Assembly: GCF_000376565.1 (NCBI RefSeq)
Contig: NZ_BARG01000034.1
Span: 62,001 to 126,000, forward strand
Source: Streptomyces hokutonensis
GTDB lineage: Bacteria; Actinomycetota; Actinomycetes; Streptomycetales; Streptomycetaceae
DNA length: 64,000 nucleotides
Reading direction: 5' to 3'
How positions within the stretch are numbered: position 1 is the first letter of the stretch; each line of letters opens with the position of its first letter. Below, in pieces: positions 31,067 through 34,640 of the stretch. Below the pieces are notes generated by a model. That model worked only from the letters and a program-made list of their open reading frames with translations. It did no database searches and was not told the DNA's origin. The translations under genes and the position numbers were made by a program.

Positions 31067-31978
31067 TCAGCCGACGGTGACGCCGTGCGAACGGAGATAG
31101 GCGACCGGGTCCACGTCCGAGCCGTAGTACGGAGTGGTCCGGATCTCGAAGTGCAGGTGCGGGCCGGTGACGTTGCCGGTCGCGCCGGAGAGGCCGATCT
31201 GCTGGCCCTCGGTCACGGTCTGGCCGGCCGAGACGGACAGCTGCGACATGTGGGCGTACTGCGAGTACTCGCCGTCCGCGTGCCGGATGACGACCTCGTT
31301 GCCGTAGGCGCCGTCGTAGGCCGCGGAGACGACCGTGCCCGCGGCGACCGCCTTGACGGTGGTGCCGGTCGGGACGACGAAGTCGACGCCCGTGTGGTAG
31401 CCGCTGGACCACATGCTGCCCGCGACGTGGTAGCCCGTGCCGATGGTGCCGCCGGTCACGGGGAGGGTGTAGCCGCTGGAGGTGCCGGCGGTGTCGGCGC
31501 TCTGGGTGGCGGTCGTCTTCTTCGAGGAGGAGGACGAACCGGAGGACGAACCGGACGACTTGGTCGTGCTCGTGCCCGAGTCCGTGCTCGTCGTGGCCTT
31601 CTTGCCGAGGGAGAGCTTGAGGCCCGGGTGGATCAGCGACGGGTCGGCGCCGATGGCCTCGCGGTTGTCCTGGTAGATCTTCTTCCAGCCGCCGGTGACG
31701 TCCTGGTCCTCGGCGATCTTCGCGAGCCAGTCGCCCGCCTTCACCGAATACGTCTTGACGCCTTCGGTCCTGGCGGTCGCCGCCTTCTCCGTCACCGTCT
31801 TCTCGGCCGCCGGAATCGACTGAACGGCCTTTTCCGGAGCGGAAGTCGAAGGGGCGGCATGGGCACCGGTGGCCCCCATGAGCGGAAGGGCGAGCGCCGC
31901 GCCGCCGGTTCCGGCTACGGCTATCGAACGGCTGAGGCGCTGGGACTTGGGACGGCGGTGCTTACCCTTCGCGGGCAT
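31067..31978 (-). CDS. Secreted LysM / M23 peptidoglycan hydrolase
   Basis: A 303-residue cell-wall enzyme. A basic N-terminus and hydrophobic stretch (AVAGTGGAALALPLMGATGAH) form a signal peptide, probably cut near residue 41. A LysM domain lies at about 75-125 (KTYSVKAGDWLAKIAED to IHPGLKLSL). A Ser/Thr-rich linker follows, then the M23 metallopeptidase: GYHTGVDFVVPTG (H and D ligands near 195) and GPHLHFEIR (HxH near 275). It should cut peptide crosslinks in peptidoglycan during growth or sporulation. A cyclic-di-AMP riboswitch occupies its leader, and the Shine-Dalgarno GAGAGG lies eight bases before the ATG, directly against the riboswitch. Confidence 0.93.
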   Translation of the reverse strand: MPAKGKHRRPKSQRLSRSIAVAGTGGAALALPLMGATGAHAAPSTSAPEKAVQSIPAAEKTVTEKAATARTEGVKTYSVKAGDWLAKIAEDQDVTGGWKKIYQDNREAIGADPSLIHPGLKLSLGKKATTSTDSGTSTTKSSGSSSGSSSSSKKTTATQSADTAGTSSGYTLPVTGGTIGTGYHVAGSMWSSGYHTGVDFVVPTGTTVKAVAAGTVVSAAYDGAYGNEVVIRHADGEYSQYAHMSQLSVSAGQTVTEGQQIGLSGATGNVTGPHLHFEIRTTPYYGSDVDPVAYLRSHGVTVG

Positions 31979-31992
31979 GACGAATTCCTCTC

Positions 31993-32175
31993 CGGCGCCT
32001 GCGAGGTGAGCTGTCGGGTGCGGGCTGGAGATGCCCGGCCGCGCGCTGGTCGCGGCTTTACCCCAAGCCCGTTCCGGAGACCGGAACAGGCGTCCTACCT
32101 GTGGGTCCCCCGCTCCTGCCGCATACGGGTGGGTGTGTGCGGAGTCCGGTCGGCGGCAGGATTGGGCGTCCGTCC
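31993..32175 (-). promoter_or_regulatory. Cyclic-di-AMP riboswitch (ydaO-yuaA class)
   Basis: The leader has the conserved blocks of the ydaO class in order. GACGCCCAATCCTGCCG forms the 5' P1 region, then GGGGGACCCACAGGT (32097-32111), hairpin GTTCCGG-AGA-CCGGAAC (32071-32087), CTTGGGGTAAAGCCG (32053-32067) and CCGACAGCTCACCTCGCAGG (31998-32017). CGCC and GGCG close P1. In Streptomyces this class is known to control cell-wall hydrolase genes such as rpfA. No terminator hairpin separates P1 from the start codon; the ribosome site starts right at the P1 3' end. Confidence 0.9.
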
Positions 32176-32200
32176 GGATTGGTGGCGAACGTAAGCGAGG

Positions 32201-32229
32201 AAGACGCAAAGGGACAAGCAGGAGGTTCC
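32201..32229 (-). promoter_or_regulatory. Candidate SigE-type promoter of the M23 hydrolase leader
   Basis: GGAACC (32224-32229), a 17-base spacer and CGTCTT (32201-32206), read on the minus strand, resemble the GGAAC/CGTC pattern of the cell-envelope stress sigma factor SigE. It would start RNA about 25 bases before the riboswitch aptamer. Confidence 0.55.
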
Positions 32230-32258
32230 ACGGTTTTGTGTTTCTTGTGACTTCCTGC

Positions 32259-32289
32259 GGGAATTCACAGTCACCCTCCGTGAATTCCC
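32259..32289. repeat. 31-base dyad upstream of the riboswitch promoter
   Basis: Perfect ten-base arms GGGAATTCAC and GTGAATTCCC flank an 11-base centre. It lies 30 bases upstream of the candidate -35 element and 158 bases past the alpha-galactosidase stop. It could be an activator or repressor site, or a terminator without a U tract. Confidence 0.6.
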
Positions 32290-32446
32290 ACCGGACTTCG
32301 ACCTCAATTCCCCTGGAAAAGCATGTCAATTACGTGAACATGACGAGCGACGTACGGTCACGGATATGACGCTGCTCACGTACAACCCCTCAGGTTCCCT
32401 TATTCCAGAGCGAGTTGTAACGAAGGCTGCAATTCGGACAGAAGGC

Positions 32447-34519
32447 TCAGATACGACGCAGCCGGAGAACCGTCGCATCGAGGTCACCGCGCAGCCCGGT
32501 CCGCAGCCCGTGGTGCAACAGCACGGCACCCCGGTGGACTTCGCCCGTTTCGAGGCATTCGTACGACGCTGTCGGGTCGAGCCCGCGCAGCCGGAGCGCA
32601 GGTACCGGCTCGCCGTAGTGCTGCGCCTGGAGCAGGGCGAGGACGACGCTCTCGTCACCGCGCGTGTACTGCACGGCGCTCAGTCCGCCGGTCGGCGGGC
32701 GCAGCCGGTGGAGGTCGCCGCGCTGCACGAGCGGCCGGATCTCCTTGTACAGGGCGATCCACTCGCGGGCCTCGGCGAGTTCCTCCTCGGTCCACTCGGA
32801 GAGGTCGCCGCCCACGCCGAGCACTCCGGCCATGGCGCTCACGAACCGGAAGCGCAGGCTGCTGACCCGGTCGTTGAGCTGGGTGTTGGGGCTGTCGGTG
32901 ACCCAGGCGGCCATCACGCGCGCGGGGTGGATCTGGCTGAAGCCGTGCTGGATGGCGAGCCGGTCGAGCGGGTCGGTGTTGTCCGAGGTCCACACCTGGT
33001 CCGTACGGCTGAGGATGCCGAGGTCGATCCGGCCGCCGCCGCCCGAGCAGGACTCGAAGGCCACGCCGGGGTGGGCCTCCCGCAGCCGGTCCAACAGGGC
33101 GTACAGGGCGCGCACATGGTCGACCCAGAGGCGCTGCGGATAGGCGTCGCCGGGCCAGCCCGCGTCGGTGAAGCAGCGGTTGAAGTCCCACTTCACATAG
33201 TCGATGGGGGCGCTGGAGAGGAGTCCGTCGAGCTGCTCCCAGAGGTACTCCTGGACATCCTCGCGGGCGAGGTTGAGGACGAGCTGATTGCGGAACTCCG
33301 TCCGCTTTCGTCCCTCTTGGTACTGCACCCAGTCCGGGTGGGCGCGGTACAGGTCGCTGTCCGGGTTGATCATCTCGGGCTCGACCCAGATGCCGAACTG
33401 CATGCCCAGGGAGTGGACGCGGTCCGCGAGGGGCTTGAGGCCGGCGGGGAAGCGGTCCGGGTTGGGGGTCCAGTCGCCGAGTCCGGCGCGGTCGCTGGTG
33501 CGGGCGCCGAACCAGCCGTCGTCGACCACGAACAGCTCGACGCCGGCCGCCGCCGCACGCTGCGCGAGGACCTCCTGCTGCTCCTCGGAGATGTCGAACT
33601 GGGTGGCCTCCCAGGAGTTGTAGAGCACCGGCCGGTCCTTGTCCGCGTCCGGGATGACGTACGTCCGCTGGTAGGCGTGCCAGGTGCGGCTGGCGCCGCC
33701 GAAGCCTGCGTCGCTCCACAGGGCGGCGAAGAGGGGTGTCGTGAAGGACTCCCCGGCCGCGAGGATCAGCAGCCCGGACTCGTCGTAGCCCGCGCCGCCG
33801 GTGATCTGCACGCGCGCGTCCGGGAGTTGGGCCACGGCGATGCGCCAGGACCCCGACCAGCCGAGGGCGCAGCCGTAGACCTCGCCGCGTTCCTCGGTCG
33901 CGTCGGTGTCGAGGGCGACCCAGGGGAGGTACTGGTGTCCGGTGTGGCCGCGGCGGCTGCCGATGACCTTCTCACCGTAGGTGAGGGGGGAGCGCACCAG
34001 CCGCGACTCGGCGGCCCAGCGCCCGTGCACGTGCGACAGCTGCCACTCCTCGCGGTCGGGCAGTGTCCAGGTCGCGGAGTCGGCGCGCAGCAGCTCCAGC
34101 GGCTCGGCCCCCTCGTTGTCGAGGACGGTCCAGCGCTCCACGACGTCGCCGCGCGTGCGGTAGTGCAGGGTGATCGTCAGTCCCGCGTCGCGGAAGCGGA
34201 GCCGCAGCTCGTCGCCGTCCGTGTCGTAGCGGTCGAAGGTCCACTCGGTGCCGCGCCGCTCCGGGGTGCGCACCGACAGGGCGGGCCGGACGAAGCGGGG
34301 GCCGCCCTCGACCGGGTACTCCTCGTGCCCGTCGAGCGGGGCCTCGAAGGAGGCTCCGCCGGGGAGCGGACGGGCGGCCAGTTCCTCGGCGTCGGCGAGC
34401 GCGATACGGGGACCCCAGTGGAGATGGAGCAGTTCGTCGCGCTCGGTGAGATGGACGGCGTAACTGCTCGTGGGTCCGGACAGCACCCACGTACGGCCGT
34501 TCTCGGCGGTCTCCAGCAT
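32447..34519 (-). CDS. GH36 alpha-galactosidase
   Basis: A 690-residue glycoside hydrolase. The N-terminal beta-sandwich contains the SRRGHTGHQYLPWVAL block. The TIM barrel begins near residue 310 with NSWEATQFDISEEQQ and FVVDDGWFGAR. The nucleophile is the Asp of YVKWDFNR (about residue 450). ESCSGGGGRIDLGIL and the acid/base Asp in TSDNTDPLDRL follow near 510-530. There is no signal peptide, so it acts on imported alpha-galactosides. ATG 34519 is chosen because GAGGGA lies a few bases upstream; a GTG ten codons earlier is also open. No transporter is adjacent, so its inducer is unclear. Confidence 0.93.
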   Translation of the reverse strand: MLETAENGRTWVLSGPTSSYAVHLTERDELLHLHWGPRIALADAEELAARPLPGGASFEAPLDGHEEYPVEGGPRFVRPALSVRTPERRGTEWTFDRYDTDGDELRLRFRDAGLTITLHYRTRGDVVERWTVLDNEGAEPLELLRADSATWTLPDREEWQLSHVHGRWAAESRLVRSPLTYGEKVIGSRRGHTGHQYLPWVALDTDATEERGEVYGCALGWSGSWRIAVAQLPDARVQITGGAGYDESGLLILAAGESFTTPLFAALWSDAGFGGASRTWHAYQRTYVIPDADKDRPVLYNSWEATQFDISEEQQEVLAQRAAAAGVELFVVDDGWFGARTSDRAGLGDWTPNPDRFPAGLKPLADRVHSLGMQFGIWVEPEMINPDSDLYRAHPDWVQYQEGRKRTEFRNQLVLNLAREDVQEYLWEQLDGLLSSAPIDYVKWDFNRCFTDAGWPGDAYPQRLWVDHVRALYALLDRLREAHPGVAFESCSGGGGRIDLGILSRTDQVWTSDNTDPLDRLAIQHGFSQIHPARVMAAWVTDSPNTQLNDRVSSLRFRFVSAMAGVLGVGGDLSEWTEEELAEAREWIALYKEIRPLVQRGDLHRLRPPTGGLSAVQYTRGDESVVLALLQAQHYGEPVPALRLRGLDPTASYECLETGEVHRGAVLLHHGLRTGLRGDLDATVLRLRRI

Positions 34520-34640
34520 CAAGTCCCTCACAGATTCGAACAAGTCCACTCAAGCGCCAACATCATCAATGGTGGGGGACCTGCGAGGCAACGCCTGTGG
34601 AGAACTCATAACCTGTGGAAACCCGTGTCACGCGTCCGGG

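Follow-up and report, generated by a model that had tools for sequence, protein, structure and literature searches.

A predicted cyclic-di-AMP riboswitch with its pseudoknot on the ribosome site of a Streptomyces M23 peptidase gene

The leader of an M23 wall peptidase gene in Streptomyces hokutonensis contains a predicted cyclic-di-AMP (c-di-AMP) riboswitch of the ydaO class, which, judged from its sequence, is probably a translational OFF switch. The ribosome site of the gene does more than adjoin the P1 stem of the aptamer: it doubles as the 3′ strand of the pseudoknot inherent to this class. Earlier publications already cover the riboswitch class, the SigE promoter of an ortholog, and the translational hypothesis; the covariation between loop and ribosome site measured here over actinobacterial leaders appears to be new.

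Riboswitch and target gene

Coordinates refer to the window, the whole 64,000-nucleotide stretch of DNA that was analyzed. The Rfam covariance model RF00379 (c-di-AMP, ydaO/yuaA) matches positions 32145 to 31983 on the minus strand with 57.4 bits (E value of 1.1e-10), above its curated gathering score of 38 bits. This bears out the preliminary description, which had placed a ydaO-class riboswitch before a hydrolase gene; the observation is correct and beyond chance. We infer that the predicted riboswitch binds c-di-AMP. The genome containing the window (11.8 Mb, 178 contigs) has seven RNAs of the RF00379 type, and at least one is found in each of the 61 genomes of the relatives search.

The regulated gene is as follows.

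31067–31978, minus strand: gene for an M23 peptidase (303 amino acids, probable LysM domain) of the ortholog group of sco6773, ATG at 31978

The hydrolase had been described as a LysM/M23 protein. The M23 domain is certain (Pfam E value of 5.2e-33), while LysM is likely, with a match of 14.5 bits that falls under the Pfam cutoff of 20.9 bits. Upstream, and also on the minus strand, a gene at 32450–34549 codes for an alpha-galactosidase of the GH36 family (Melibiase, E value of 2.3e-119). The sco6773 leader of S. coelicolor is orthologous to that of the window: an ortholog leader (L078, genome G142) aligns over its whole length with the window leader and matches sco6773 in promoter letters and in distance to the gene. 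The literature searched contained no riboswitch experiment on sco6773.

Fold of the aptamer

In the window, Rfam positions the 5′ half of the aptamer wrongly; comparison with relatives sets the P1 5′ strand at 32168–32165 and the aptamer at about 32168–31989. The following elements, all on the minus strand, were checked on an alignment of 58 orthologous leaders.

32165–32168: P1 5′ strand, CGCC (ortholog alignment, every cell paired)
31996–31999: P1 3′ strand, GGCG (ortholog alignment)
32114–32161: P2a hairpin, UCCUGCC (32161–32155) with GGCAGGA (32120–32114), invariant in the 58 orthologs
32001–32113: P2 helix around the core, GCGGGG (32113–32108) with CCUCGC (32006–32001) (Rfam alignment and ortholog counts)
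32067–32091: P3 hairpin, a variable arm, with both-side changes in 6 of 11 pairs
32016–32063: P4, GGG (32063–32061) with CCC (32018–32016), enclosing P5 and P6 (Rfam alignment and ortholog counts)
32038–32056: P5 hairpin, with both-side changes in 5 of 6 pairs
32022–32036: P6 hairpin, GGGC/GCCC, bearing the pseudoknot loop (ortholog alignment)

Over the whole proposed structure, 94.1% of the alignment cells are paired, against 33 to 47% with slid partners, and 14 pairs are changed on both sides. The P2a loop is about 34 nt long in the window leader. The UCCUGCC/GGCAGGA motif of P2a recurs in the other class-B leader families; its conservation exceeds the need of a plain helix, and a sequence-specific role is possible. 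When helices were forced in pseudoknot-free folding of this GC-rich RNA, all states were strongly paired, and the folding did not distinguish among them.

The ribosome site as a strand of the pseudoknot

Three further elements on the minus strand connect the aptamer with the start codon.

32027–32031: pseudoknot 5′ strand, UCUCC, in the P6 loop (loop/tail covariation in actinobacterial leaders and in the other-phyla set)
31989–31993: pseudoknot 3′ strand, GGAGA (covariation; located as in the ydaO crystal construct)
31987–31993: Shine-Dalgarno region, GGAGAGG, 8 nt upstream of the ATG

The pseudoknot strand GGAGA overlaps the Shine-Dalgarno sequence, and the ribosome site thus lies within the proposed ligand-bound fold. 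The pseudoknot covers GGAGA only, leaving the GG of GAGG free. In the ortholog alignment, GGAGAGGAA of the Shine-Dalgarno region is invariant except for one 2-nt insertion. GAGAGG is present at 31992–31987, as had been claimed, but the statement that it begins directly after P1 was slightly wrong, P1 ending at 31996 with three nucleotides (CCG) between.

Loop and tail pair in 173 leaders of the same riboswitch class, nearly all from actinobacteria. For 29 nonredundant actinobacterial leaders, distinct in both loop and tail, the loop/Shine-Dalgarno pairing score was 15.48, compared to 12.85 (standard deviation [SD], 0.43) when partners were swapped, with a maximum of 14.21 in 1,000 swaps; all loops are pyrimidine rich and all tails purine rich, which allows even swapped partners to pair reasonably well. 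The same swap test on 81 loci, mostly of other phyla and collected by pattern scan, gave 14.14 versus 10.89 (SD, 0.27). Pseudoknot pairs hardly vary inside the ortholog group, and the covariation therefore rests on comparison between families.

The pseudoknot belongs to the aptamer itself, as indicated by this covariation outside actinobacteria and by pairing in the ydaO-class crystal construct. The sequence of that construct ends in GUAGGGUUACUCCUUCGACCCGAGCCCGUCAGCUAACCUCGCAAGCGUCCGAAGGAGAA, and the crystal structure has a pseudoknot modeled with 5 or 6 pairs (PMC5393176); in our reading of the printed sequence, it would join loop CUCCUUCG with tail CGAAGGAG. The window leader has a loop-to-tail pseudoknot of the crystal type as UCUCC/GGAGA, and both its aptamer core and its pseudoknot position are as in ydaO/yuaA RNAs (Bacillus subtilis ydaO; PDB 4QLM/4QLN). 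It differs from them in that its tail strand is the ribosome site and in the presence of a long P2a loop and of an additional helix, helix X (see below). In the actinobacterial leaders analyzed, this aptamer pseudoknot falls on the ribosome site.

In the other leader class of this genome (L001, L002, and L003, each at 1501–1700), a loop CCUUCC(U/G) pairs with GGAAGG, which is sometimes followed, closer to the start codon, by a second purine-rich stretch resembling a ribosome site. Occlusion may be less direct in that class because of this second stretch.

Distance to the start codon

The gap between P1 and the ATG is only 17 nt. The following distances are rough, because start codons were assigned by rule. 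P1 ends 8 to 29 nt upstream of the start codon in every one of the 173 leaders; for the end of the pseudoknot, the corresponding distance is 4 to 19 nt in 166 of the 173 actinobacterial leaders and 10 or 11 nt in 92 of the 102 leaders of the window's subclass. In the scan of other phyla, the core motif lies a median of 158 nt from the first plausible start, with 12 of 98 loci within 60 nt, and a simple scan found a terminator in 45 of 115. By these assignments, start codon spacing appears tight in actinobacteria and usually long elsewhere; RF00379 members sampled outside actinobacteria mostly have the gene much further downstream, and terminators are common among them. A short core-to-start distance was also seen in some nonactinobacterial records, e.g., L203 (Paenibacillus puerhi), L225, and L230. 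These few cases suggest that the arrangement extends beyond actinobacteria, and members with the pseudoknot on the ribosome site may be more widespread.

Proposed mechanism

Binding of c-di-AMP would close P1 and allow the UCUCC of the P6 loop to pair with GGAGA at the 3′ end of the leader. As GGAGA is part of the Shine-Dalgarno sequence, the 30S subunit would be blocked and the M23 wall peptidase would not be made. When c-di-AMP is low, the pseudoknot would be open and the ribosome site accessible. For the window's copy, repression by the ligand and control of translation are the probable behavior, and several published results are consistent with both. First, published members of the class are OFF switches (PMC11481543). 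Second, the nlpC riboswitch of Corynebacterium glutamicum, which resembles that of the window in class, in preceding a wall peptidase gene, and in lacking a canonical terminator, is reported to be a translational OFF switch that represses with the transcript level unchanged; the same study proposed that a CTCC/GGAG pseudoknot forms on its ribosome site (PMC9960051). For nlpC, the level of action was measured, whereas for the window it is deduced from anatomy and comparison. Third, blocking of the ribosome site, and so of translation initiation, was proposed for S. coelicolor by Haiser (2009) and Block (2010), according to PMC8079986.

Similar ways of working occur in other families. The SAM/SAH, SAM-II, and preQ1 riboswitches have a ligand-stabilized pseudoknot that includes or covers the Shine-Dalgarno sequence. 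They are alike in working, but their folds, ligands, and family are unrelated to those of the window.

A conserved helix at the 5′ side of the aptamer

Two strands flanking the P1 5′ strand are predicted to form helix X, with one A-A mismatch in the window copy (both on the minus strand).

32170–32178: helix X 5′ strand, UCCGGACGG, immediately upstream of P1 (compensatory changes in four leader families)
32145–32153: helix X 3′ strand, CCGACCGGA, within the P2a loop, pairing with 32178–32170

The 3′ strand comes after the P2a 5′ strand, and the loop of 16 nt consists of exactly the P1 and P2a 5′ strands. Helix X is also found, with other letters, in rpfA leaders and in two other families (e.g., UCCGAACGG/CCGUUCGGA, GACCGCCGC/GCGGCGGUC, and GUCAGACG/CGUCUGAC). 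Over 146 unique leaders, it scored 21.46, compared to 19.35 (SD, 0.24) when partners were swapped and 15.59 (SD, 0.23) when the flanks were shuffled. The case for helix X rests mostly on differences between families, as the excess of covariation is small inside single families. A pair count with per-sequence registers, in which shuffles were not refitted, inflates the contrast, and we rely instead on the swap test, which refits every pairing. By inspection, a genome of another family (L150) has a short version, UACC/GGUA, in the equivalent position, and none was found in the other Streptomyces leader class. A DNA operator is less likely as an explanation, because the letters differ between families while pairing is kept, with G-U pairs among the variants. 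The conserved helix is apparently new, although it may have been drawn earlier for rpfA.

Helix X could either compete with the bound fold or clamp it as a second pseudoknot, a choice that its local stability does not settle. Tentatively, it might be a ligand-free alternative fold that c-di-AMP binding displaces, which would add to the translational reading rather than exclude it. Helix X would form first during transcription, holding the P1 and P2a 5′ strands in its loop, and the ribosome site would stay free until c-di-AMP is bound. Such a role is favored by the compensatory recurrence in four families, by a loop comprising precisely the strands that would have to be withheld, and by a local stability near that of P2a in three of the four families. 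With the housekeeping transcript predicted to start near 32181, helix X would also sit at the 5′ end of the RNA. Nevertheless, helix X has no letters in common with P1 or the 7-pair P2a and could thus coexist with them as a clamp, and its weak covariation in single families and its apparent absence from the other Streptomyces leader class also count against a switching role. The generalization that class-B Streptomyces c-di-AMP riboswitches (those of rpfA, the M23 group, and two more families) adopt helix X without ligand and bury the ribosome site in the pseudoknot when bound is more speculative still.

Translation or transcription

No intrinsic terminator was found in 31700–32450 (chance expectation, 0.7), a region that includes the 17-nt gap between P1 and the start codon, in agreement with the preliminary description. 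This absence does not discriminate between levels of action, as the S. coelicolor riboswitch is also reported to lack a terminator (PMC9960051).

A translational reading is complicated by S. coelicolor rpfA, the one Streptomyces example that has been tested, for which premature transcription termination upon binding has been reported (work of St-Onge and Elliot, cited in PMC10117811), unlike the model proposed here; according to PMC9960051, this termination was observed in vitro with Escherichia coli polymerase. The rpfA leader, in this genome and in relatives, has the same layout as the window leader, sharing genus, subclass, helix X, P2a, and the pseudoknot on the ribosome site. Layout alone consequently cannot set the level of action, and the contrast that had been drawn between the window and known Streptomyces examples fails as a matter of architecture. 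By analogy with rpfA, c-di-AMP might halt RNA polymerase in or just past the window leader with no canonical terminator involved; that the pseudoknot overlaps the ribosome site would then be secondary. We consider such attenuation unlikely: no terminator was found at the locus, termination does not need the tight start codon spacing, and C. glutamicum nlpC works without a change in transcript. Transcriptional and translational action could also both occur.

Translational action is the better-supported reading, as had been suggested, but on different ground, namely, that the Shine-Dalgarno sequence is itself a pseudoknot strand. A simple hairpin over the ribosome site, in which CCUC of the P2 3′ strand (32006–32003) pairs in one state with the complementary GAGG (31990–31987), is very improbable and was rejected, as CCUC is absent from most leaders and covariation is lacking (7.33 versus 8.03 for swapped partners).

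Overlapping promoters

Two predicted promoters on the minus strand precede the leader.

32201–32229: SigE-like promoter, −35 GGAACC (32229–32224), 17-nt spacer, −10 CGTCTT (32206–32201)
32188–32217: housekeeping-like promoter overlapping the SigE site, TTGTCC (32217–32212), 18-nt spacer, TACGTT (32193–32188)

The SigE-like site, noted previously as GGAACC-17-CGTCTT, has the GGAAC-type −35 element, 16- to 17-nt spacer, and cGTCT-type −10 element expected of a SigE promoter, and it had already been published for the ortholog: sco6773, described as a putative LysM peptidase gene, is a SigE target with the promoter GGGAACCCTTCGCTTGTCCCTGTGCGTCTT 224 bp from the start (PMC6767563). The promoter of L078 is letter identical to this sequence, with 224 nt to the ATG. 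The conservation screen of that study spanned only 10 to 200 bp upstream of start codons, and the sco6773 promoter thus fell outside it. Among 89 orthologous leaders, 51 have the SigE-like motif in this position (0.8 expected). The housekeeping-like promoter is better conserved, being found in 90 of 90 orthologous leaders, with a spacer of 18 nt in 89 of them; shuffles gave an expectation of 1.1. Where SigE sites of S. coelicolor overlap HrdB motifs, an association with repression by SigE has been described (PMC10771440); by analogy, SigE may either reinforce basal transcription at this locus or compete with it. The overlapping promoter pair appears to be new.

Upstream of the SigE-like promoter, an operator-like inverted repeat at 32253–32295 (TCCTGCGGGAATTCAC/GTGAATTCCCACCGGA) has 16-nt arms, 88% complementary and 11 nt apart, with a core near TTCACGG-N7-CCGTGAA in orthologs such as L044 and L045.

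Implications

The comparison suggests that the rpfA (transcription) and C. glutamicum (translation) results share one structure. If helix X and the pseudoknot act as proposed for class-B leaders, the expression platform would flank the aptamer on either side, and hardly any of it would lie between aptamer and gene. Through the overlapping housekeeping-like and SigE-like promoters and the riboswitch, envelope stress and c-di-AMP may converge on one enzyme, and the pseudoknot is a specific base pairing through which c-di-AMP could turn off Streptomyces wall hydrolases.
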